Origin: Leisingera sp. SS27
GTDB taxonomy: Bacteria; Pseudomonadota; Alphaproteobacteria; Rhodobacterales; Rhodobacteraceae
Direction: 5' to 3'
Assembly: GCF_028368855.1 (NCBI RefSeq)
Contig: NZ_JAQNCY010000004.1
Location: 124,001-188,000 of the forward strand
DNA length: 64,000 bases
The position numbers and the translations under genes were made by a program. Positions 54,331 to 64,000 of this stretch are shown here, in pieces (position 1 is the stretch's first letter; each line of letters begins with the position of its first letter). The notes beneath the pieces were generated by a model. The model saw only the letters and a program-made list of their open reading frames with translations. It ran no database searches and had not been told where the DNA came from.

Positions 54331-54355
54331 GGAACCTTCCCGGCTTGAGCGGGTT
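54331..54355 (+). promoter_or_regulatory. EcfG-type promoter for the PRC-barrel gene
   Basis: GGAAC (54331-54335), 16 bp, then GGTT (54352-54355). The -10 end lies 53 bp before the start at 54409. Confidence 0.75.
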
Positions 54356-54408
54356 GAGGGGGTGCTTAACACGCGCTCTGAAATGCGGAACACTCAGGAG
54401 ATCAACCA

Positions 54409-54855
54409 ATGAAACATCTTACGCTTTCGGCTTCGCTGATCATCGCTGCTGCGGTTCCTGCGGCCTCCGGCACGGATGGAGGCATTTCCGCAAACAGCCC
54501 GCTCAGCGGCGGCACGGCTTCCGGGGGCGGCATTGCGGCCCTGATATCCGGCGCCGACGGGCCTGCGATGGAGCCGCTGGGCATGAATGAGGTCACGGCT
54601 TCGGAGCTGACCGGCGCCCCGGCCTATGACGCCAAGGACGAGCATATTGGCGAACTCTCGCAGGTCGTGGTGAACACCAATGGTGGCGTCGAAGCCGTCA
54701 TCATCGATGTGGGCGGGTTTCTAGGCTTCGGCGAAAAGCCGGTCGAGCTGTCGATGGGCGATATCGAGATCGTGCAGGCCGAAACTGACGTGCGTGTCTT
54801 CACCCATCTGACTCGCGAGCAACTGGAAGCCTTGCCGGACTACCGGCCGGGATAA
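54409..54855 (+). CDS. exported PRC-barrel domain protein
   Basis: 148 residues. A signal peptide (MKHLTLSASLIIAAAVPAASG) is followed by a Gly/Ser-rich stretch (NSPLSGGTASGGGIAALISGADGP) and a PRC-barrel domain (ASELTGAPAYDAKDEHIGELSQVVVNTNGGVEAVIIDVGGFLGFGEKPVELSMGDIEIV). PRC-barrel proteins of this exported form are common in Rhizobiales and Rhodobacterales and are often stress-induced. An EcfG promoter lies upstream and a terminator downstream, so it is monocistronic. Confidence 0.88.
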   Translation: MKHLTLSASLIIAAAVPAASGTDGGISANSPLSGGTASGGGIAALISGADGPAMEPLGMNEVTASELTGAPAYDAKDEHIGELSQVVVNTNGGVEAVIIDVGGFLGFGEKPVELSMGDIEIVQAETDVRVFTHLTREQLEALPDYRPG

Positions 54856-54975
54856 GATACAGAAATCGTGGCGGCCTGCTGGCCGGCATGATCACCTCCG
54901 CTTGTTTGTCTTCCCCGGTTCCGGGTTCCTGCCTCGTACCGGAGTCCCGGGGGATTTCACTGCCAAGCGGCCTGC

Positions 54976-55008
54976 AAGACCGGGTTCCCGACGGAGCCCG
55001 GTCTTTTT
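54976..55008 (+). terminator. rho-independent terminator after the PRC-barrel gene
   Basis: AAGACCGGG (54976-54984) and CCCGGTCTT (54997-55005) around a 12-nt loop, followed by TTTCC. It lies 121 bp after the stop codon and 25 bp before the end of the convergent exoD. Confidence 0.75.
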
Positions 55009-55032
55009 CCCTCTGGCCGGAGCGCATGCCAA

Positions 55033-55620
55033 TCAAACAAATCCCGACGCGATCGCGGCAGCTGCGGCAAAGAGCGCGGCAAGCGTGATCAAGGCAATCA
55101 GCCCGTCGCGGGTCAGCATGGACACAGCCAGAAGGCTGACAATGCCGCCCAGCACCGATGAGGAGAACGGGACAATTTCCAGCAGGGGCATCAGAGCACC
55201 GCAGATCAGGCAAACGGTCTGGATGAGAGTGAGAAAAGGCTGGCGGGTCAGCAATGCCAGCCGCTTGCCCGAATGGCGGTCCATCCAGCGCACGCTACCG
55301 CGTAGTGCTGCTGCCCCCTTGCGCACGGCATCAGCCTGGATCCTGCGGCGGCCCAGCCAGCCGGGGATCCACAGGTGCCGTCGTCCCATCAGCATCTGGA
55401 CCGAGATCAGGCAGATCAGAGCACCGCAGGCGGAAGAGAACAGCGGCACCCCGCTGAGCGGTGTGACCACAGCCATGGCCGGGACGGCCAGCACCGCCGG
55501 AAGCGAACTCTGCCCCAGTTTCTCGGCAAACCGGCTGACAGTAAAGCCGCCGCGGTTTCTGCGCGCAAGGCTGCTGGTTTTCTTCAGAACATGTTCAACG
55601 GGCTGTTTCGCTGATGTCAT
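55033..55620 (-). CDS. ExoD-family membrane protein
   Basis: 195 residues. A basic N-terminal segment (TSAKQPVEHVLKKTSSLARRNRGGFTVSRFAEKLGQSSL) then four or five membrane helices (VLAVPAMAVVTPLSGVPLFSSACGALICLISVQMLMG, LIQTVCLICGALMPLLEIVPFSSSVLGG, LITLAALFAAAAAIAS). The G-x-P-L-F-S-S and LMGRRHLWIPGWLGRR motifs place it in the exopolysaccharide synthesis ExoD family (PF06055). Its membrane role is unclear; in Sinorhizobium, exoD mutants are alkali-sensitive. A perfect EcfG promoter lies upstream. Confidence 0.9.
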   Translation of the reverse strand: MTSAKQPVEHVLKKTSSLARRNRGGFTVSRFAEKLGQSSLPAVLAVPAMAVVTPLSGVPLFSSACGALICLISVQMLMGRRHLWIPGWLGRRRIQADAVRKGAAALRGSVRWMDRHSGKRLALLTRQPFLTLIQTVCLICGALMPLLEIVPFSSSVLGGIVSLLAVSMLTRDGLIALITLAALFAAAAAIASGFV

Positions 55621-55660
55621 CTTGCCCCCCTTTTCTCTGGCTGTTCCGGTTTACAGGGGC

Positions 55661-55685
55661 AACGCGCCTTCCGGTTTGAAGTTCC
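55661..55685 (-). promoter_or_regulatory. EcfG-type promoter for exoD
   Basis: Minus strand GGAAC (55681-55685), 16 bp, then CGTT (55661-55664), 41 bp before the exoD start. A full match to GGAAC-N16-CGTT. Confidence 0.8.
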
Positions 55686-55751
55686 AAGTGCCTGATTTTC
55701 GCAAAAATCCGCCTACGCAGTGTTGGCCGGGCCGACCGCCGGATTTTTGCC

Positions 55752-55777
55752 GGAACCTTTCGTCTGCCTGTCGCGTT
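55752..55777 (+). promoter_or_regulatory. EcfG-type promoter for the exported protein and entericidin genes
   Basis: GGAAC (55752-55756), 17 bp, CGTT (55774-55777), 48 bp before the start at 55826. Confidence 0.75.
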
Positions 55778-55825
55778 CTGTCGGTGCATCCCCAAGCGGG
55801 ACACAACTGGAAAGGAACATCGACG

Positions 55826-56314
55826 ATGAAACATCTGATCCGCACCACTGCTCTTGTCGCAGCCATGGCAACCGCCGCTACCGCTGGCTCCATGGTCTCA
55901 GAAATCGACGTGACCGCCGATCTGAGCGCGGTTGAGAACTATCCGGCAGCAAAAGTCTGGACCAGCCTCGAAACCGACCTGGAAACCGCCCTGGCAGAGA
56001 AGCTGGTGGGACAGATCGCTGAAGCCGGCGCTGAGGACGCGGCAGAAATCCATGTGGAGATCGACTCGGTGGCAATGGCCAGCAATTTCGAGCAGGCTCT
56101 GGGTGTCGGCGAATGGGTGCTGAAGGGCGATGTGGACATCGATATGGCCGACGCTTCCAAAGATCTACGCTATGACCTGACCGTGTCCGCCGACCAGCTG
56201 AACGCCTACTATCCTGAAGGCACCGATCCCGCAGCCGTGACCGTTGACAGCGACCTGTTCTACAATGCCGTCATTGATGCCTTTGCCGGCAATGTGGCCT
56301 CGAAACTGCAATAA
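55826..56314 (+). CDS. exported hypothetical protein
   Basis: 162 residues. Signal peptide MKHLIRTTALVAAMATAATAG. The mature part has no known domain: AADLSAVENYPAAKVW-like start, then ETDLETALAEKLVGQIAEAGAEDAAEIHVEIDSVAMASNFEQALGVGEWVLKGDVDIDMADASKDLRYDLTVSADQLNAY, with alternating strands that could form a small beta domain, acidic overall. AAAGGAACATCGACG precedes the start. It is followed after 10 bp by the entericidin gene. Role unknown, but EcfG control suggests an envelope stress function. Confidence 0.8.
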   Translation: MKHLIRTTALVAAMATAATAGSMVSEIDVTADLSAVENYPAAKVWTSLETDLETALAEKLVGQIAEAGAEDAAEIHVEIDSVAMASNFEQALGVGEWVLKGDVDIDMADASKDLRYDLTVSADQLNAYYPEGTDPAAVTVDSDLFYNAVIDAFAGNVASKLQ

Positions 56315-56324
56315 GGAGGCCAGC

Positions 56325-56450
56325 ATGCGTATCCTGATAGCTATGCTTGCAATGGCGGGCCTGGCGGCCTGCGAGACTGCAGAAGGTTTCGGCAGGGATG
56401 TGTCGAACCTTGGCAACGAAATCACCGAGGAATCGCAGGAAGCTCAATAA
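56325..56450 (+). CDS. entericidin-like small lipoprotein
   Basis: 41 residues: MRILIAMLAMAGLAAC (lipobox LAAC, Cys16) followed by ETAEGFGRDVSNLGNEI and TEESQEAQ. The C-x-T-x-E-G-x-G-x-D-x2-x-x-G motif is that of the entericidin A/B family (PF08085), small stationary-phase lipoproteins. AAGGAGG precedes the start. It is the second gene of an EcfG-driven pair. Confidence 0.85.
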   Translation: MRILIAMLAMAGLAACETAEGFGRDVSNLGNEITEESQEAQ

Positions 56451-56477
56451 GGCTTACGGAATTTCCTCCCGTCCCGA

Positions 56478-56509
56478 AGGCCCGGTGCAGTGCTGCACCG
56501 GGCCTTTTT
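56478..56509 (+). terminator. rho-independent terminator after the entericidin gene
   Basis: AGGCCCGGTGCA-GTGC-TGCACCGGGCCT (56478-56505), perfect 12-bp stem, followed by TTTT. It ends the exported-protein/entericidin transcript. Confidence 0.92.
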
Positions 56510-56569
56510 CATGGGCATGAACACTTGATTGCAAAGCTCTTGGGCACCTGTGGCAGAAGACAGTGCCAG

Positions 56570-58057
56570 TCAGACAATGTCTTCCGTAGCACCCGGCAGG
56601 GGCTGCTGCAGTTCTGCCATCCTGTCCGGCTGATGCGGCACCAGCAGCCCGCGCCGGGCCTCGGGGCGGCGCACCTGGTTGCGGCGGATTTCCTGCTGCC
56701 ACCAGGCGGCAGCGCTGGCCGGATCCAATGCCTCCTCCGGCAAGTCTTCCTGCCACCAGTGCCGGGCCAGCACCTGCCAGAGCTGCCCGATCCGGTCCTT
56801 GCCAGTGATGCGCAAAGCTGCCTCGGTATCCCAGCGCATTGACCGCCCGTTGAGGTTGGCCGACCCCACCAGGGCAAAATCCCTGTCAGTGATGAGCGCC
56901 TTGCTGTGCACGTAAATCAGCGGCGAGCCCGCAAGGGTCGAAGGCGCATCCCGCGCGGCCATCCGGCGCTGCACCGGGCTGGCGATACAGGCACGGGACC
57001 CAAAGGCTGAACTCACGGTCTCAAGCGCCTCCGCCTGCAGCGCCATGCCATAGCGGGCATCAAGCTCCTGATTGCCATCGAAGGCAACATCTTCCGGCAG
57101 GCCGGGAAGGATGAGGATCAGCGACAATGCGGGATTGCGGCGGGCTGCATCTGCCAGCCCCCGGGCAATGACGCTGGAGCGCAGAAACTGGGTTTCCAGA
57201 TAGATCAGGCGGCGGGCAGCGGCAAAAGCGGCCAGGTGATCTTCCTCGATTTCGCGCAGAACGGTTTTTGGCGACAGCGCCCAGAAGCCCGCACGGCGCG
57301 GAACTGACAACGTCCGCCGGATGTGTTTGCGGACAGGCGGCGGCCTGCGTCCGGCGATATCATCCAGAAAGCTATCAAGATGATCAGCGGCTTCCTCAGC
57401 CTCGGGGCCGCGCAACAGCAATTGCACATCCGCCCATGTTTTGAACGCAGGCTGGTCGTGGGTGATGGTGTCATACCGGCGGTGGTTCTGATCCAGCCCG
57501 CCGATGTAGAGAACCTGCCGGTCGATCACCGCTACCTTCTGGTGATGAGAGACGGGAAAAAGCTGCGGCAAACTGCGGTTCGCAGGGGAGGGCCTGAGCC
57601 GCCGCGGAAGCTTGCGAAGCTTGCGGATCACAAAAGGTGAAAACGCCAGCCGCGGCAGCAAGCCTGCCCGTGCCGGATGCAGCGCCGCGGTCACCGACAG
57701 GCGCGCAGCCGCTTCCGGCGCAAGGCCACAGGCAATCTCCCTGGCCTGGGCAAGCGTGTTTTGCGCCGCCGCATGCAGCGGGGCCGCCATCACCGGGTCA
57801 AAGTCGCTCACCACCAAGCGGACCTGAACGCCGCGCCGCAGGGCGTCTGCAATCAGTTCTGCCCAGGTTTCTCCTGTTTTTCTGCCTTCCGGGCTTAGCA
57901 GCCGGGTCGCGAAATCGAACAGCCGGAAGCTCGCAATGATTTCCTGCTTGGCCTCCAGGACCGCACGCTCGAACGCCGGCCAGGCCTGTTCAGCCGTGAC
58001 CAGAACTGAAAATTCCGGGCCGCTGAAGCCATCACGCTGCGGGTTCTTCTGCGTCAT
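56570..58057 (-). CDS. phospholipase D family protein, cardiolipin-synthase-like
   Basis: 495 residues without signal peptide or helix. Both HKD motifs are complete: His172-x-Lys174-x4-Asp (HHQKVAVID) with GGLD, and His384-x-Lys386-x4-Asp (VHSKALITD) with GSANLNGRSM. The second is followed by the N-G-R-S motif of cardiolipin synthases. It transfers or hydrolyses phosphatidyl groups. The start lies 26 bp inside the 3' end of the histidine kinase gene, so it belongs to the general stress operon nepR-ecfG-kinase-pld. Stress-induced membrane lipid change is the simplest reading. Confidence 0.9.
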   Translation of the reverse strand: MTQKNPQRDGFSGPEFSVLVTAEQAWPAFERAVLEAKQEIIASFRLFDFATRLLSPEGRKTGETWAELIADALRRGVQVRLVVSDFDPVMAAPLHAAAQNTLAQAREIACGLAPEAAARLSVTAALHPARAGLLPRLAFSPFVIRKLRKLPRRLRPSPANRSLPQLFPVSHHQKVAVIDRQVLYIGGLDQNHRRYDTITHDQPAFKTWADVQLLLRGPEAEEAADHLDSFLDDIAGRRPPPVRKHIRRTLSVPRRAGFWALSPKTVLREIEEDHLAAFAAARRLIYLETQFLRSSVIARGLADAARRNPALSLILILPGLPEDVAFDGNQELDARYGMALQAEALETVSSAFGSRACIASPVQRRMAARDAPSTLAGSPLIYVHSKALITDRDFALVGSANLNGRSMRWDTEAALRITGKDRIGQLWQVLARHWWQEDLPEEALDPASAAAWWQQEIRRNQVRRPEARRGLLVPHQPDRMAELQQPLPGATEDIV

Positions 58058-59804
58058 GATCCTGTTCTGTGTCCCTTGCGGCTGGCGGAACTGCACCGGC
58101 GGCAACGGGAAAACCCAGCCGGTAGGTGTAGGCTGTCTCTGTCTCGCCGGTAGTGGCGATGCCGTCAAGCTGCGCCGTAAAGGCCATCATCAGCCGAGCG
58201 CCGATGCCGGTGCCTTGAATGGCTTCTTCCTCCGCGGCCAGCGGCTGGCCCTTGGTATTGGTGATTTCAAGCTCAAGCCAATCTGGCGCCGTTTCATGCA
58301 GGCGGACATCAATGCGCGGGCGTCCTCCATCAGGCACACCCAGGTACTTGACTGCATTGGTCATCGCCTCCGACACCAGCATCGAAAGCGTAACGCCCTG
58401 ATCCTGGCTCAGCGGCACAGGCGCGAGGTCGGTTTCGATCATAATCTCCTGCCCCGTCCCGGCGTTCATCGACCCGATCTCCGTGATCAGCTCTTGAACA
58501 AGGTCGCGGCTGTCGACCGTCGTGATATCCGGGTTGGTGTTCAGGCTGCGATGTATGGTGGCCAGCCCGCGCACCCGGCGCTGCAGCTGCGACAGCATCC
58601 GGCGGGCTTCGGGCGTCTGTGCGGTGCGGCCCTGCATGTTCATGATCGAGGCGACCAGCTGGAGGTTGTTCTTGACCCGGTGGTGCACCTCCCGCAGCAG
58701 GATCGTCTTTTCTTCCAGGTCCAGTTCGCGCCGCCGTTCTGCCTCGCTCAGGATGGCAACCATCCTGTTGAAGGACTGCTCTGCTTCCTCGAACTCACGC
58801 GGCGGGTTGAGGAGTTCCAGCCTCGGGTCTTCACGCTCCCCCAGTGCATAGCGGCGCATTGCGCGGCGCAGCGCACTGAGGTGGCGGATGACCATTTGCT
58901 GCAGGCCAAGGACGGCCACGGAAATCCCTGCAAGCCACATCAGGACCGGAAAAGCGATCGTCATCAGGGAGGCGGGGTTTCTGGCCGCGGTCATGGCGTT
59001 TTCCACCGGCCAGCTGCCTACAACCGAAACCTGGCCGGGAAGGATACCGCTGACAGCAAAGAACCGTTCGCTGCCTGAACGGTCATCCTCAAAAAAGGTC
59101 TCCCCGGTATGCGCCAGCAGGTCCCGCCGCGGCACGGAAACGGGCAGCACTTGGGCCGCCTCCTCTTCCGGCACGCTGGACGAAAGAATTTCGCCCTGCG
59201 CGTCGATCGTCACATACTGAATTCCCCGGTCCGGCCAGTTATTGCCGGAACCGGCTGCGGAAACCTTGTGCGGAATGGCGATGGACACATAACCCAGCAA
59301 AATGCCGTCGCGCTGCACCGGGCTGGTGGCCAGCAGGAACGAGCCGCCCTCCCCCAACAAGTCGCGGCCCAAAGCAAAGGACAATTGTGCTGTCTGGCGG
59401 GCTTTCAGATACATCCACCGCTCAGACACGTCCCGCGACTTGCCGTCGGATGCGCAAATCATCCGGCCATCCGGCGTGATGAATGCCGCAAAGGTGAACG
59501 GATTCGGGCCTTCCGTGAAAGCTTGCAGAAGACCGCTGCAGGCGCGGCGGTCGTCCAGAACCGGAAGTATAGCCGCCGCGACCCCTTCTGTAGCACCGCC
59601 AGCACGCTGCAGCAGTTCGCGTTCCCTGGATGCCGCCCGTTCGGTCTGGTCAAGCAAAGACGCATGCGACAGCCGGGTGGCCTCATCAACAACAGCATTG
59701 GTCTGATAGAGCGCGATCAGGCCCAGCGGCAGCAGCGCAAAGGTCATCAGCGCTGCGAGCCGCACCAGAAGCCCCCCCGCCTGCAACCGCGGCATTGAGA
59801 TCAT
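58032..59804 (-). CDS. sensor histidine kinase (HisKA_2/HWE type) of the general stress module
   Basis: 590 residues. Helix 11-33; a periplasmic region of about 250 residues with a dCache-like pattern (FAAFITPDGRMICASDGKSRDVSERWMYLKARQ, VSERWMYLKAR); second helix 283-302; a HAMP-like linker; and the HisKA_2 box REVHHRVKNN (371-380; phospho-His 374 or 375), then N483 (N box) and GTGIG (531-535). Such kinases feed PhyR in the general stress response. It overlaps ecfG by 4 bp (ATGA) and the phospholipase gene by 26 bp. Confidence 0.92.
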   Translation of the reverse strand: MISMPRLQAGGLLVRLAALMTFALLPLGLIALYQTNAVVDEATRLSHASLLDQTERAASRERELLQRAGGATEGVAAAILPVLDDRRACSGLLQAFTEGPNPFTFAAFITPDGRMICASDGKSRDVSERWMYLKARQTAQLSFALGRDLLGEGGSFLLATSPVQRDGILLGYVSIAIPHKVSAAGSGNNWPDRGIQYVTIDAQGEILSSSVPEEEAAQVLPVSVPRRDLLAHTGETFFEDDRSGSERFFAVSGILPGQVSVVGSWPVENAMTAARNPASLMTIAFPVLMWLAGISVAVLGLQQMVIRHLSALRRAMRRYALGEREDPRLELLNPPREFEEAEQSFNRMVAILSEAERRRELDLEEKTILLREVHHRVKNNLQLVASIMNMQGRTAQTPEARRMLSQLQRRVRGLATIHRSLNTNPDITTVDSRDLVQELITEIGSMNAGTGQEIMIETDLAPVPLSQDQGVTLSMLVSEAMTNAVKYLGVPDGGRPRIDVRLHETAPDWLELEITNTKGQPLAAEEEAIQGTGIGARLMMAFTAQLDGIATTGETETAYTYRLGFPVAAGAVPPAARDTEQDHDAEEPAA

Positions 59805-60358
59805 GCGGCGCTCTGCTGCGCGACGATTCCGGCGGTCACGGTGTCGGTCAGCTCAATCTGACCGTCTTCGTCCAGATCCATCAGCTCAGCCAGACGGGCG
59901 CGGGCGCGGTTCACACGGCTTTTTATGGTGCCGGTTTTCACGCCGCACATTTCGGCGGCCTCATCGTAGGAAAAGCCGCCTGCGCCGACCAGCACCAGGG
60001 CCTCGCGCTGCTCATCGTTCAATTGGGCAAAGGCAACCTGAAAATCGCGCATGTGAAGCCGACCGTCGTGATCTGGCTTTTGCGCCAGGCTGCCGGACAG
60101 TGCCCCGTCGGCATCCTCGACCTCACGCTTGCGCTTGCGGCGCAGCGAATAAAAGGTGTTACGCAGGATGGTGAAGAGCCAGGCCCGCATGTTGGAGCCT
60201 GCTTCGAATTTTTCGATATTGGTCCAGGCCTTGACCAGCGTGTCCTGAACCAGGTCATCAGCGGTGGCGCCGTTCCGGGTCAGGCTGATTGCGAATGCCC
60301 GCAATGCGCCCAAGTGGTTGACCAGGTCGTCCCTGGGGTTAGGCTGTATCTCAGTCAT
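59801..60358 (-). CDS. ecfG: general stress ECF sigma factor EcfG
   Basis: 185 residues. Sigma2 region: LVNHLGALRAFAISLTRNGATADDLVQDTLVKAWTNIEKFEAGSNMRAWLFTILRNTFYS; sigma4: LNDEQREALVLVGAGGFSYDEAAEMCGVKTGTIKSRVNRARARL. These match EcfG of the alphaproteobacterial general stress response, which recognises GGAAC-N16/17-CGTT. NepR holds it inactive until phosphorylated PhyR takes NepR away. Its start overlaps the nepR end by 8 bp, and the kinase start overlaps its stop by 4 bp. Confidence 0.95.
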   Translation of the reverse strand: MTEIQPNPRDDLVNHLGALRAFAISLTRNGATADDLVQDTLVKAWTNIEKFEAGSNMRAWLFTILRNTFYSLRRKRKREVEDADGALSGSLAQKPDHDGRLHMRDFQVAFAQLNDEQREALVLVGAGGFSYDEAAEMCGVKTGTIKSRVNRARARLAELMDLDEDGQIELTDTVTAGIVAQQSAA

Positions 60359-60554
60359 TGGAGGTGCTCTCCTCTGACTGCTTTGTCTTTCCCAGAGTCT
60401 CTTTTTCCTTCAGCTGCTTCAGCAGGTCAGTGAAGCGGTCCGGCACCGGTTCACTGGCGACCTGTTCGAACGCCCGCTTGAGGTTTTCATCGATTTCGCG
60501 GTCGGCCTGCTCATTCCGGGGCCGGGCACGTTGTGGCTGTGTCATGCGATCCAT
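60351..60554 (-). CDS. nepR: anti-sigma factor NepR
   Basis: 67 residues, mostly helical: REIDENLKRAFEQVASEPVPDRFTDLLKQLKEKE is the NepR core (two amphipathic helices that bind sigma2 and sigma4 of EcfG). The start is limited by the EcfG promoter, whose -10 is at 60582-60585; so ATG 60554 or ATG 60545 is used, and the in-frame ATG 60608 lies within the promoter and is excluded. Neither candidate has a strong ribosome-binding site. Placed before ecfG, as usual for this module. Confidence 0.9.
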   Translation of the reverse strand: MDRMTQPQRARPRNEQADREIDENLKRAFEQVASEPVPDRFTDLLKQLKEKETLGKTKQSEESTSND

Positions 60555-60574
60555 CAATTTTTTGCGCAGTTTCT

Positions 60575-60599
60575 GGAACCAAACGCGCGGCGGTGCGTA
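60575..60599 (+). promoter_or_regulatory. EcfG-like promoter for phyR
   Basis: GGAAC (60575-60579), 16 bp, CGTA (60596-60599), one mismatch in the -10; 39 bp before the phyR start. It interleaves with the nepR promoter on the other strand. Confidence 0.55.
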
Positions 60600-60606
60600 T
60601 AGTTCC
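60582..60606 (-). promoter_or_regulatory. EcfG promoter for nepR-ecfG
   Basis: Minus strand GGAAC (60602-60606), 16 bp, CGTT (60582-60585). Full consensus. It would give autoregulation of the nepR-ecfG-kinase-pld operon. Confidence 0.85.
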
Positions 60607-60638
60607 ATATATATTGTAAAAAAAAGGAACGTCGCACA

Positions 60639-61454
60639 ATGACCGCTCAATCGGGAGAACTGATCGCCAGCCAGATTGGCGCCAACCTGCCCTATCTGCG
60701 CCGCTATGCGCGTGCCCTGACCGGCAGCCAGAGCAGTGGCGACAAATATGCCCTGGCGGCGCTGGAGGCGATCCTGGCAGGGGAGGCCGAGTATGACAGC
60801 AACCTGTCACCCAAGGCAGCCCTGTTCCGGGTCTTCCACGCAATCTGGTCCTCCACCGGCGCTCCGGCAGGCGAGGATGAGGACGATTCCGGGCTTGCCG
60901 CCAAAGCGCAAAGGCACTTGCGACAGCTGACACCGAACACCCGTGAAGCTTTGCTGCTGCATACCATCGAAGAATTCAGCGCCGCCAGTACCGGCATCAT
61001 CATGGGGGTCAGTGAAGATGAGGCATCCGATCTGATTTCAATCGCTTACGAGGAAATGTCACGCGCCACTGCCGGGCGGGTGATGATCATCGAGGACGAA
61101 GCCGTTATTGCGATGGATCTGGAGGCAATTGTCACCGGTATGGGTCACAGCGTCACGGGTATCGCCCGCACTGAATCTCAGGCGATGGAGCTTGCATCCA
61201 GTGCGCCTGCGGAACTTGTGCTCTCTGATATCCAGCTCGCCGATAATTCTAGCGGTATAGATGCTGTGAACGGCATTCTGCAACAACACGGCGACCGCCC
61301 GGTGATTTTCATAACCGCCTACCCGGAACGGCTGCTGACCGGGGAAGGCCCCGAACCGGCCTTTCTGATTTCCAAGCCTTATACAGAGGAGCAAGTCCGC
61401 TCTGCCGTAAGTCAGGCGATGTTCTTTTCTTCCACGGAAACACTGAAAGTCTGA
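60639..61454 (+). CDS. phyR: general stress response regulator PhyR
   Basis: 271 residues in the PhyR order: an N-terminal sigma-like domain (about 1-140; ANLPYLRRYARALTGSQSSGDKYALAALEAI, LTPNTREALLLHTIEEFSAASTGIIMGVSEDEASDLI) and a C-terminal receiver (147-265) with acidic pair Glu152/Asp153, phospho-Asp197, FITAYPERLLTG and Lys246 (SKPYTEEQV). When phosphorylated, the sigma-like domain binds NepR and frees EcfG. GGAACGTCGCACA precedes the start. It is divergent from nepR and ends at a strong terminator. Confidence 0.96.
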   Translation: MTAQSGELIASQIGANLPYLRRYARALTGSQSSGDKYALAALEAILAGEAEYDSNLSPKAALFRVFHAIWSSTGAPAGEDEDDSGLAAKAQRHLRQLTPNTREALLLHTIEEFSAASTGIIMGVSEDEASDLISIAYEEMSRATAGRVMIIEDEAVIAMDLEAIVTGMGHSVTGIARTESQAMELASSAPAELVLSDIQLADNSSGIDAVNGILQQHGDRPVIFITAYPERLLTGEGPEPAFLISKPYTEEQVRSAVSQAMFFSSTETLKV

Positions 61455-61483
61455 AAGCTGCTCACGACTTTGCAAAGTAATCC

Positions 61484-61514
61484 CCGGACCGCCACTGCGG
61501 TCCGGTTTTCTTTT
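61484..61514 (+). terminator. rho-independent terminator of phyR
   Basis: CCGGACCGC-CACT-GCGGTCCGG (61484-61505) followed by TTTTCTTTT, 30 bp after the phyR stop. Confidence 0.92.
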
Positions 61515-61523
61515 GCGAGCTGC

Positions 61524-61562
61524 AAAAAAGCCCTTAGTCATTGGTCTGACCAAGGGCTTTGC
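61524..61562 (-). terminator. rho-independent terminator of dps
   Basis: Minus strand: AAGCCCTT (61552-61559) and AAGGGCTT (61528-61535) with inner GGTCAGACC, followed by TTTTTT (61524-61529). It lies 49 bp after the dps stop. Confidence 0.8.
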
Positions 61563-61610
61563 AATGCCCTGCCCAGCAAAGCGGGGCAGGACGCCGGGAC
61601 TGCTTTTAAC

Positions 61611-62108
61611 TTACGACTTGGCGATTGCACGCAGCATCCAAGCTGCCTGCTCGTGGAAGGCAGACCGTGCGGTTGCCAGATCCTCTGTCACGATGTCGCG
61701 GCGGCGGCTTGCCAGTTCCGCAAGCGCGTGCATGCGGTGGGCAATGCGCTCATGGCTTGACGCCAGATCCTGCGCCATCTCACCGGCGCTCAAGTCGCCG
61801 CAGGGATCTTCGATCTTGGACCGGCTCAGGATTTCGCCCATACGAGACGGTGCCAAATGCCCCAAGGCGCGGATTCGCTCTGCCAGCTGATCAGCGGCGG
61901 AGAACATGTTCTCATACTGGTCTTCGGTCAGCTTGTGCATCGAAAAAAAGGCCGGGCCCTCCACATTCCAGTGGCAGGCGTGGGTCTTGAAAACCAAACG
62001 GTAGGTATCTGCAAGCACATCCGCCAAGCCGTCAGCAATTGCGCCGGTGTCCCGGACACCGGTCTCAACTTTGTCGGGGCTTGGTACGGCGGTCAGTGCG
62101 CCAGTCAT
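61611..62108 (-). CDS. dps: Dps-family DNA-binding ferritin
   Basis: 165 residues. The ferroxidase site KTHACHWNVEGPAFFSMHKL (His46, His58) and DQLAERI (Asp73, Glu77) is intact; the four-helix bundle runs through ESTSHERIAHRMHALAELASRRRDIVTEDLATARSAFHEQAAWMLRA-like C-terminus. It oxidises iron with peroxide and protects DNA as a dodecamer. AAGGAGTTTCCC precedes the start, and a full EcfG promoter lies upstream. Confidence 0.95.
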   Translation of the reverse strand: MTGALTAVPSPDKVETGVRDTGAIADGLADVLADTYRLVFKTHACHWNVEGPAFFSMHKLTEDQYENMFSAADQLAERIRALGHLAPSRMGEILSRSKIEDPCGDLSAGEMAQDLASSHERIAHRMHALAELASRRRDIVTEDLATARSAFHEQAAWMLRAIAKS

Positions 62109-62150
62109 GGGAAACTCCTTTTCCTGTTGCAAGTTACTTACTGGAAAGTC

Positions 62151-62175
62151 AACGCAAGCGGGGCCTGATCGTTCC
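62151..62175 (-). promoter_or_regulatory. EcfG promoter for dps
   Basis: Minus strand GGAAC (62171-62175), 16 bp, CGTT (62151-62154), full consensus, 43 bp before the dps start. Confidence 0.85.
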
Positions 62176-62227
62176 GCCCCGCCAGCAAGAAAATGCCGCC
62201 CATCTGCAGAACGCCCCGCACCCGCTT

Positions 62228-62398
62228 TCATCGGGAAGCGCCGCGAAGCAGCCGGACGATCAACGCTGCCGCGAAGAGAAGCACAAAGATGTAGAACAGG
62301 ATCTGTGCGATCCCTGCGGAGGCCGTGGCGATGCCGCTAAATCCGAAGATTCCGGCGATGATTGCAACGGCCAGGAAGACAATTGCCCAGTAAAGCAT
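62228..62398 (-). CDS. DUF1328 (YtjA-like) small membrane protein
   Basis: 56 residues: [20 protein letters not shown] then [20 protein letters not shown] and [16 protein letters not shown]. The G-F-x-G-I-A-x-A-S-A-G-I-A motif with two short helices is DUF1328 (PF07043), a stress-linked small membrane protein in many proteobacteria. AAAGGAGATGGC precedes the start; an EcfG-type promoter lies upstream. A second copy lies at the right window edge. Confidence 0.93.
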
Positions 62399-62432
62399 GC
62401 CATCTCCTTTCTGTTGCTGGTTTCACCTACCC

Positions 62433-62457
62433 AACCCGCGGCCGCTGGAATTGTTCC
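62433..62457 (-). promoter_or_regulatory. EcfG-type promoter for the DUF1328 gene
   Basis: Minus strand GGAAC (62453-62457), 16 bp, GGTT (62433-62436), 35 bp before the start at 62398. Confidence 0.75.
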
Positions 62458-62566
62458 AATCCACGGGGAGCACATTTCCTGAAAATCGTTGCGGCCTCCC
62501 TGCAGGGCGTCGTGCAATGCACTTGCTCAATCGCAAACACGAGAAGGCAGGCCGCTTCTGGCCACG

Positions 62567-63301
62567 TCAGATCAGCGGCCGGATTTCAGGGGCGGACTCC
62601 TCGATCAGCGCCATTTCGGCGAGCGCTGGAATACTTCTGATCTTCAGCATCCCGTTCTGCCATTCGGCCAGCTTGGTATCACGCAGGGCCTTCAGCATTT
62701 TGTTTGTGTGCACCAGGGACAGCCCCAGCGCATCTGCCAGGTCCTGCTGACGGTAGGGGAGCGGCACCGCGCTCTTGACCTCCATTCCCACGGCCTTCAG
62801 CCTTTCATAAATACGTACCAGCGCCCAGGCGATGCGCTGCCGGGCATCGCGCTGGCCTAACGAGGCAATGGTCTCGCCAAGGAAGTGTTCCTCTACCGCT
62901 GCAATCCACGTCAGGTCGTATGCGCGTTCTGGATGCTGCTGGAACAGCTCGAATAGCGCGGACCGGCGAAACACACAGAGCGTCATGCTGGTGGTTGCTT
63001 CGACGGAATGCTTCATCTCGCCCATCAGCCCTGCCTGAAGCCCGGCGAAATCGCCCGGAAAAAGGAAGTTGATTACCTGCCGTCGGCCGTTTTCCAACGT
63101 CTTGTAGCGCGTGCCCATGCCCTTGAGGACAGTAAAAAGCTGCGGGCTGTTTGAACCTTCCAGAAGGATGGTTGTGCCTGCATCCACCACCATTTCTCCG
63201 GTTTTGAAGGATTGAGTGAAGGCGACCTCCTCGCGCGACATTGGCGTGAAAATGGTGCGTTTGCGCAGCGGGCAGTTCTGACAGGCGGTCGCAGACATCA
63301 T
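62567..63301 (-). CDS. Crp/Fnr-family transcriptional regulator
   Basis: 244 residues. A cyclic-nucleotide-binding fold (VVDAGTTILLEGSNSPQLFTVLKGMGTRYKTLENGRRQVINFLFPGDFAGLQAGLMGEMKHSVEATTSMTLCVFRRSALF) and a C-terminal winged helix with RQQDLADALGLSLVHTNKMLKALRDTKLAEWQNGM. The N-terminus has CQNCPLRKR (Cys7, Cys10) but not the further Cys expected for the oxygen-sensing 4Fe-4S cluster of FNR, so it is not a standard FnrL. AAGGGGAAAAA supports ATG 63301. It neighbours stress genes and has an imperfect EcfG-like site upstream. Confidence 0.88.
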   Translation of the reverse strand: MMSATACQNCPLRKRTIFTPMSREEVAFTQSFKTGEMVVDAGTTILLEGSNSPQLFTVLKGMGTRYKTLENGRRQVINFLFPGDFAGLQAGLMGEMKHSVEATTSMTLCVFRRSALFELFQQHPERAYDLTWIAAVEEHFLGETIASLGQRDARQRIAWALVRIYERLKAVGMEVKSAVPLPYRQQDLADALGLSLVHTNKMLKALRDTKLAEWQNGMLKIRSIPALAEMALIEESAPEIRPLI

Positions 63302-63331
63302 TTTTTCCCCTTCCATCGTATGTCACAGTTT

Positions 63332-63356
63332 AATGCGCCCGAAGCCCAAAAGTTCC
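63332..63356 (-). promoter_or_regulatory. weak EcfG-like site upstream of the Crp/Fnr gene
   Basis: Minus strand GGAAC (63352-63356), 16 bp, CATT (63332-63335): the -10 has one mismatch. Spacing to the start (31 bp) fits the others. Kept as tentative. Confidence 0.4.
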
Positions 63357-63386
63357 AAACTCGCAGGCCAAATGGGGAGCGAAGCA

Positions 63387-63806
63387 ATGGAGTGGCTGAA
63401 CCGCGAAAGCGCACCTGTCTACCTGATTGCGTCCAGAAATTTTCTGGTCACCTGCGATATCTGCGACACCATTCTGGACTTTGATCCAGCTGCCGAGATC
63501 AATGTGCAGAGCAGCCAGAGCGCGGCGCTGCCATTTCTGTCACGCTACCGCAGGATCGCAGTGGCTTTCATGGAATGCGGATCCGAAATGATTGCCCGGT
63601 TCGGGATTGACCAGACCGTTCGCAGCCGTGGCGGCAGGCTGGTCCTGATGGGCAGTAGAGCCGAGCGGGAATTGGAAAGGCAATCCCGGAAGCTGCGGTG
63701 GCCGGTGCTCTCCAGGCCTGTGTCGACGCAGATGATTATTGGGCATCTGATGCCCCCGGACGAGCGGTCTGGGAACAAATCCGGTGTCTGCGGGTTGACA
63801 ACCTGA
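63387..63806 (+). CDS. receiver-like protein without the phosphoacceptor Asp
   Basis: 139 residues. Pattern: PVYLIASRNFLVTCDICDTILDFDPAAEINVQSSQSAALPFLSRYRRIAVAFMECG then GIDQTVRSRGGRLVLMGSRAERELERQSRKLRWPVLSRPVSTQMIIGHL. The order of strands and helices and the final WPVLSRPVST (like the K-P-F of receivers, with Arg for Lys) suggest a response-regulator receiver fold; the position of the acidic pair and the phospho-Asp (here in VAFMECG) are not acidic. I chose ATG 63387 because GGGGAG lies 8 nt upstream; ATG 63333 is also in frame. Function unknown. It is divergent from the Crp/Fnr gene. Confidence 0.65.
   Translation: MEWLNRESAPVYLIASRNFLVTCDICDTILDFDPAAEINVQSSQSAALPFLSRYRRIAVAFMECGSEMIARFGIDQTVRSRGGRLVLMGSRAERELERQSRKLRWPVLSRPVSTQMIIGHLMPPDERSGNKSGVCGLTT
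63772..63796 (+). promoter_or_regulatory. EcfG-type promoter inside the receiver-like gene, for the last DUF1328 gene
   Basis: GGAAC (63772-63776), 16 bp, GGTT (63793-63796), 49 bp before the start at 63846. It lies within the last codons of the gene before. Confidence 0.75.
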
Positions 63807-63845
63807 ACGCTGCTTCCGGCAGCCCCGTTGAAAAGGAGAAACGAC

Positions 63846-64000
63846 ATGCTTGGTTGGGCATTTACATTTCTGGTGATCGCATTGGTCGCAGCACTGCTCG
63901 GGTTCGGCGGAATTGCAGGAGCGTCGGCCGGCATAGCGAAGATCCTATTCGTCATCTTCCTGATCCTCTTTGTTGTCGCGATGGTTGCGCGCGCAGTGAA
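63846..64000 (+). CDS. DUF1328 small membrane protein, second copy (3' end outside window)
   Basis: 51 codons visible: [20 protein letters not shown] then [20 protein letters not shown] and [11 protein letters not shown], running off the right edge. Same family and layout as 62228-62398 (GFxGIAxASAGIA). AAAAGGAGAAACGAC precedes the ATG. An EcfG-type promoter lies 49 bp upstream. Confidence 0.92.

Follow-up and report, generated by a model that had tools for sequence, protein, structure and literature searches.

A predicted general stress response locus of Leisingera sp. SS27 with superimposed EcfG-type promoters between nepR and phyR

Genes and superimposed promoters of the locus

In a 64-kb stretch of the genome of Leisingera sp. 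SS27 (the window, in whose numbering all coordinates are given), the genes phyR, nepR and ecfG lie together with a sensor kinase gene and form what, judged from the encoded proteins and promoter motifs, is a Rhodobacteraceae general stress response (GSR) control locus. The nepR-ecfG unit and phyR diverge from a gap of 84 bases, counted from ATG to ATG, which contains a 32-bp inverted repeat, GGAACCAAACGCGCGGCGGTGCGTATAGTTCC. Read leftwards, this repeat gives the nepR promoter; read rightwards, it gives a phyR promoter with the -10 box CGTA, whose final base departs from the strict EcfG pattern used throughout, GGAAC-N16/17-(C/G)GTT. Each -35 box lies a few bases past the -10 box of the opposite promoter, and symmetric core elements for both strands are thereby found in one footprint, as in bidirectional promoters. 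The shared symmetric -10 of the sigma-70 class (PMC12825309) is not present in the repeat, which has two separate -10 boxes, each beside the opposite -35. Across the 4.8-Mb genome, a relaxed version of this repeat is found just once, in the nepR-phyR gap. The phyR leader (60610-60638) is A-rich, and matching T-rich tracts in relatives are mildly conserved, reaching roughly 1 bit per base.

The assignment of the core genes is supported by profile matches. PhyR, composed of a sigma-like domain and a receiver, scores 343.8 bits against PRK09191.1 (cut-off 240); NepR, encoded directly upstream of ecfG and overlapping it, scores 59.6 bits against PF18557 (cut-off 25.7); and the EcfG-type extracytoplasmic function (ECF) sigma factor scores 313.4 bits against PRK12546.1 (cut-off 270). 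The kinase resembles PhyK far under the model cut-off (180.9 versus 750 bits), and its translation contains HRVKN, a form of the HRXXN motif named for GSR kinases (PMC8103513). On the minus strand, nepR, ecfG, the kinase gene and a phospholipase D-like (PLD) gene form one run in which the end of each overlaps the start of the next; the sole strict site ahead of this run is that of nepR. An earlier note on this DNA, made from the sequence alone, had placed regulator, sigma factor, kinase and several outputs together, and the identification of PhyR, NepR, EcfG, an HWE-type kinase and plausible targets (Table 1) bears this out.

Table 1. Genes and promoter motifs of the locus, in window numbering
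Feature	Coordinates	Strand	Basis
EcfG-type site ahead of PRC-barrel gene	54331..54355	+	strict match
PRC-barrel protein	54409..54855	+	PF05239
ExoD family protein (exoD)	55033..55620	-	PF06055
EcfG-type site ahead of exoD	55661..55685	-	strict match
EcfG-type site ahead of exported protein gene	55752..55777	+	strict match; 15/16 relatives
Exported protein	55826..56314	+	no Pfam or NCBIfam match
Entericidin-like small lipoprotein	56325..56450	+	profile score below cut-off
PLD, last of nepR gene run	56570..58057	-	PF13091, PF00614
HisKA_2/HWE sensor kinase, PhyK-like	58032..59804	-	PF07568, PF07536
ecfG, sigma factor	59801..60358	-	Sigma70_r2/r4, PhyR_sigma2, PRK12546.1
nepR, anti-sigma factor	60351..60554	-	PF18557
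32-bp inverted repeat, superimposed divergent EcfG promoters	60575..60606	both	sequence; kept in relatives
phyR promoter GGAAC-N16-CGTA, final base off consensus	60575..60599	+	overlaps nepR promoter
nepR-ecfG promoter GGAAC-N16-CGTT	60582..60606	-	strict match
phyR, anti-anti-sigma response regulator	60639..61454	+	PF22029, PF22233, PF00072, PRK09191.1
dps	61611..62108	-	PF00210
EcfG-type site ahead of dps	62151..62175	-	strict match; 9/16 relatives
First DUF1328 protein	62228..62398	-	PF07043
EcfG-type site ahead of first DUF1328 gene	62433..62457	-	strict match; DUF1328 38/46 relatives
Crp/Fnr regulator, FnrL-like below cut-off	62567..63316	-	Pfam and NCBIfam
Near-match GGAAC-N16-CATT ahead of crp/fnr, doubtful	63332..63356	-	strict motif 0/30 relatives
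EcfG-type site ahead of second DUF1328 gene	63772..63796	+	strict match
Second DUF1328 gene	63846..64000, continuing past window end to 64019	+	PF07043

Conservation of the repeat in the family

The family was sampled with 198 genomes, in which 96 EcfG loci at E <= 3.2e-48 (counted by eye, this genome included) were all inspected for the repeat, defined in relatives as GGAAC-N20..24-GTTCC. The first 30 family loci contain it in 29 cases. Where phyR is adjacent and divergent, the repeat is present in 81 of 88 loci; in the other eight it is absent from all (Fisher 5e-8). Among 78 of these 81 repeats, 46 are 32 bp long, 24 are 33 bp, seven are 31 bp and one is 30 bp, and this length of 30-33 bp is kept while the distance to phyR varies across loci. 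In a smaller sample of 20 relatives, studied over 20-kb regions (sample B), 19 retain the kinase-ecfG-nepR run together with a divergent phyR. The exception (G173, locus L070), in which the kinase is unmatched, has phyR about 6 kb away; here nepR and phyR have one single EcfG promoter each, and the repeat is absent. An EcfG match at the same threshold was found in only about 90 of the 198 genomes, again by eye, and the EcfG system looks patchy in the family.

Within the repeat, conservation falls on the arms and not on the centre. Of the 78 repeats, 54 have a strict -10 towards nepR, 62 towards phyR and 43 both ways, compared with a mean of 0.02 and a maximum of 1 for both directions when the interiors were shuffled. 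The 46 repeats measuring 32 bp were selected by the outer five bases per side; independently of that choice, the inner arms (positions 6-11 and 22-27) carry 0.4-2.3 bits at each position, the middle ten bases average 0.14 bits and the flanks 0.21-0.33. Of 156 readings of the repeats, 118 show the letters of the reverse -10, AAC(C/G), at positions 6-13. The same letters are there in 6 of 81 promoters that face a single way, those of dps, the DUF1328 genes and the exported protein gene in relatives.

These counts bear on two other ways to understand the element. It could be supposed that a housekeeping promoter accounts for most phyR transcription and that the EcfG promoter of phyR is a vestige, in this genome if not more widely, as the CGTA box here and the phyR mRNA of Rhodobacter sphaeroides, which did not track membrane stress (PMC5830050), would allow; however, the strict -10 is commoner in the phyR direction than in the nepR direction across the family, and we consider a vestigial phyR promoter unlikely. 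The repeat could also serve chiefly as an operator bound by a dimeric regulator, such as the Crp/Fnr protein encoded nearby, with only the nepR direction being a real EcfG promoter. An inverted repeat with conserved arms fits such a role, and a Crp/Fnr gene is matched near the loci of 13 of the 20 relatives. However, the arm pairs form correctly spaced EcfG promoters both ways, the relaxed repeat occurs once in the genome while operators usually recur, and the repeat is missing where phyR is not divergent, all of which makes the operator role very improbable.

Distribution beyond the family

A contig scan for the strict form of the repeat returned at least 118 stretches, and the matches listed comprise 112 from Rhodobacterales, four unplaced and two from Hyphomicrobiales; Cereibacter johrii, C. 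ovatus and C. changlensis are among the species that carry the repeat. Together with one further locus (L173), 119 loci were considered: in 103 the repeat lies between nepR-ecfG and divergent phyR, in 13 it lies beside nepR-ecfG or phyR with the partner unmatched in the locus, and in three (L173, L247 and L248) it lies elsewhere. In L173 (G369, positions 1501-1532) the palindromic EcfG promoter recurs as an exact copy beside a receiver-domain gene, and NepR and EcfG are unmatched in this 3-kb locus. A class-wide search for the exact pattern found 1 of 385 genomes, a figure with little bearing on rarity, as the pattern is strict and misses the repeat of this window as well as those of G055 and G075; the class sample described next is the more informative comparison.

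The class was sampled through the loci of 30 NepR matches; 26 come from other families, and 21 of the 26 have divergent PhyR. No repeat was found between nepR and phyR of these 21 loci within the 450 bases scanned, a distance that the gap exceeds in L100 and L111; the one repeat match in other families, in L109, lies past the phyR start. Nine of these loci have strict sites on both strands; in them the promoters are separate and their -35 boxes stand back to back, at a nearest distance of 6-9 bp in six loci and 28-41 bp in three. The near-constant 6-9 bp of the six (L093, L094, L096, L099, L104 and L109) suggests a constrained back-to-back arrangement. Another family (f11, L292-L319) has, in 25 of 28 loci, a nepR promoter of the form GGAAC-N16-CGTTCC, which is itself a 27-bp inverted repeat. 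It was rejected as the same element: a divergent PhyR is matched in only one of the 28 loci (L319), which itself is without the repeat. The terminal CC may be part of the -10 box of that family, and the form may represent either an extended -10 or a further kind of symmetric promoter.

With other families in view, it can be asked whether the element of Rhodobacteraceae is anything other than two ordinary EcfG promoters that overlap in a short gap, both used and both firing too rarely to collide or to have a regulatory effect. The gap in Leisingera is indeed short, and bidirectional promoters of Escherichia coli at basal activity showed no competition (PMC12825309). However, 81 of 88 loci keep the exact interlock of 30-33 bp (32 or 33 in most) despite a varying distance to phyR, which speaks against such an overlap, and the promoters of other families are separate. 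An overlap of this ordinary kind is a real possibility, which we nevertheless tend to doubt.

Clustered EcfG sites and candidate targets

The superimposed promoter lies within a cluster of EcfG-type sites. The earlier note had reported seven GGAAC-N16/17-(C/G)GTT sites, and all seven are present, each ahead of a plausible ATG. The distances from -10 to start, given there as 28-53 bp, were measured as 53 bases for the PRC-barrel gene, 40 for exoD, 48 for the exported protein gene, 27 for nepR, 42 for dps, 34 for the first and 49 for the second DUF1328 gene. The G+C content, assumed to be about 62 percent, is 62.9%. Two sites come in addition to that list, the superimposed phyR promoter and the near-match ahead of crp/fnr, and a further strict match lies just past the window end (64061-64086), where the next long reading frame is 130 or more bases away.

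The window contains eight strict matches, seven of them within 54331-63796, whereas the window, dinucleotide-shuffled 100 times, gave a mean of 1.28 and a maximum of 5. The whole genome (4,798,424 bases) contains 85 forward and 75 reverse matches, 160 in total, and a reversed control pattern gives 215; as the strict pattern is rarer than its control, a genome-wide excess is absent and most single matches are probably due to chance. The clustering is another matter. Against an expectation of 0.32, the 9,466-bp stretch holds seven matches, for which a Poisson P(>=7) of about 5e-8 is optimistic because the matches themselves set the boundaries of the stretch. A fairer test placed 160 points at random: of 20,000 simulations, 3 brought seven points together in some stretch of 9,466 bp. 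Elsewhere in the genome the densest 10 kb contain at most four matches (three places), counted by eye among those of the 160 matches that were listed. The proposal that seven placed matches are a strong signal therefore stands, and the equal density along the genome that would have spoken against it was not seen. Clustered promoters of this form at candidate targets are among the marks of a GSR locus, and the term regulon for the genes behind them is a prediction from sequence.

How far this prediction reaches was judged from relatives. In the loci of the contig scan described above (sample A), the 160 bases upstream contained a strict site at DUF1328 genes in 38 of 46 cases, at the exported protein gene in 15 of 16 and at dps in 9 of 16; the rates were 5/34 for PLD, 2/91 for the kinase and 1/4 for exoD, with none at PRC (0/3) or Crp/Fnr (0/30) and a background of 473/11,700 (4.0%). 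The rates for the nepR and phyR promoters themselves would be circular, the loci having been chosen by the repeat, and were left out. In sample B, genes matched nearby were Dps (11/20), DUF1328 (13/20), Crp/Fnr (13/20), PLD (11/20), ExoD (3/20) and PRC (2/20). A strict site was found there at dps in 9/11, DUF1328 in 9/13 and PRC in 1/2 (background 3.3%), and none at exoD (0/3), PLD (0/11), the kinase (0/19) or Crp/Fnr (0/13).

The regulon proposed by the earlier note is broadly supported as a prediction, with exceptions. The clustering and the sites kept in relatives make DUF1328, the exported protein and dps well-supported predicted targets, whereas the links to exoD and PRC find no such support: as targets conserved across the family neither is supported (sites in 1/4 and 0/3 for exoD, 0/3 and 1/2 for PRC), and they are candidates on the strength of this genome's own sequence. 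Crp/Fnr, considered for its near-match, is a doubtful EcfG target. A relaxed EcfG motif occurs in 5 of 13 relatives and the strict motif in none of either sample, and another box is conserved at that spot. This box, TTAAACTGTGACATA (longer form GCATTAAACTRTGACATA), lies at 63319-63333 (-), directly ahead of the crp/fnr frame, and occurs once in the window; a similar box precedes crp/fnr in 11 of 13 relatives (by eye), several of them without any GGAAC. It is possibly a promoter or operator of that regulator. The reading frame at 63333-63806 (+), between crp/fnr and the second DUF1328 gene, is without a Pfam or NCBIfam match.

Proposed mechanism

The PhyR-NepR-EcfG pathway is known from other species and is assigned here by homology. 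In this pathway NepR would hold EcfG, the HWE-type kinase would phosphorylate PhyR, and phosphorylated PhyR would remove NepR; the freed EcfG would then drive nepR-ecfG-kinase (and possibly PLD), phyR and the neighbouring protection and envelope genes. Both the nepR-ecfG and the phyR unit are known to be under GSR-dependent promoters, which amplifies the response (PMC8103513). It is proposed that in this family the two units start at one shared repeat, used in exclusive orientations, which we regard as likely. The repeat would have room for a single EcfG polymerase at a time, the orientation of this polymerase would pick nepR-ecfG-kinase or phyR, and the sigma/anti-sigma pair and the anti-anti-sigma factor, amplified by the same factor, would thus compete event by event. 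That EcfG transcribes in both directions and binds in one orientation to the exclusion of the other is inferred from the sigma-70 bidirectional promoters of E. coli, where polymerase binds pseudo-symmetric DNA in two mutually exclusive orientations (PMC12825309).

Several observations weigh against this proposal. Seven of the 88 divergent loci are without the repeat, as is G408 (L095), a family member outside the 96 with divergent phyR; since such loci exist, the repeat is not essential. In this genome phyR expression from the site may be weak, because its -10 box is off consensus. The five E. coli bidirectional promoters tested had a basal activity too low for competition (PMC12825309). Finally, under membrane stress the ecfG mRNA (RSP_1272) of R. 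sphaeroides is raised in a PhyR-dependent manner and phyR mRNA is not, while phyR mRNA is raised under other stresses, a pattern that fits competition and a separate phyR promoter equally well (PMC5830050).

A broader claim is that the core of the stress switch in Rhodobacterales is a single-site toggle, in which a palindromic EcfG promoter yields either sigma and anti-sigma factor or the anti-anti-sigma factor and never both. This we advance tentatively, being slightly inclined against it. The relative amounts of sigma, anti-sigma and anti-anti-sigma factor govern partner-switch stress circuits. If the toggle is correct, then the choice of orientation would set the ratio of PhyR to NepR and EcfG, keep feedback from running away and dampen noise. 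The two -10 boxes, which here are tilted towards nepR-ecfG, would be the means by which species adjust this choice. Competition for one polymerase site would then be a simple way of setting this ratio at the DNA level, kept across dozens of genera.

Comparison with known systems

A general stress locus with neighbouring targets is a correct description and, like the seven clustered sites, ordinary for the class. The proteins, the nepR-ecfG operon with divergent phyR and the HRXXN-type kinase nearby are those of the PhyR-NepR-EcfG systems of Alphaproteobacteria (PMC8103513); the difference lies in the promoters, separate in nine loci of other families and superimposed in one 30-33 bp repeat in the Rhodobacteraceae sample. 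The R. sphaeroides locus RSP_1271-1274 is alike in gene order and in the Crp/Fnr gene downstream of phyR, and a transcription start was mapped upstream of RSP_1273; the sections of that paper cited here do not mention a shared or palindromic promoter (PMC5830050), and the repeat is known to us from the three other Cereibacter species named above. For Rubellimicrobium thermophilum, a strain of which carries the repeat, GSR promoters were predicted with the same consensus, and their overlap is not discussed in the portion of text cited (PMC12148442). No superimposed nepR/phyR promoter was described in the search listings, abstracts and text passages of open-access literature that were covered, and as far as that literature can tell the shared palindromic nepR/phyR promoter is new.

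The closest mechanistic parallel is found in the E. coli bidirectional promoters, in which strong activation one way repressed the opposite direction and altered noise (PMC12825309). These promoters share a symmetric -10, with starts commonly 10, 18 or 23 bp apart, and that paper uses neither "extracytoplasmic" nor "alternative sigma" anywhere. In Leisingera, in contrast, complete ECF promoters interlock, and their products are the sigma factor's own switch. If the proposed use of the repeat is correct, bidirectional promoters would extend from sigma-70 to ECF sigma factors.

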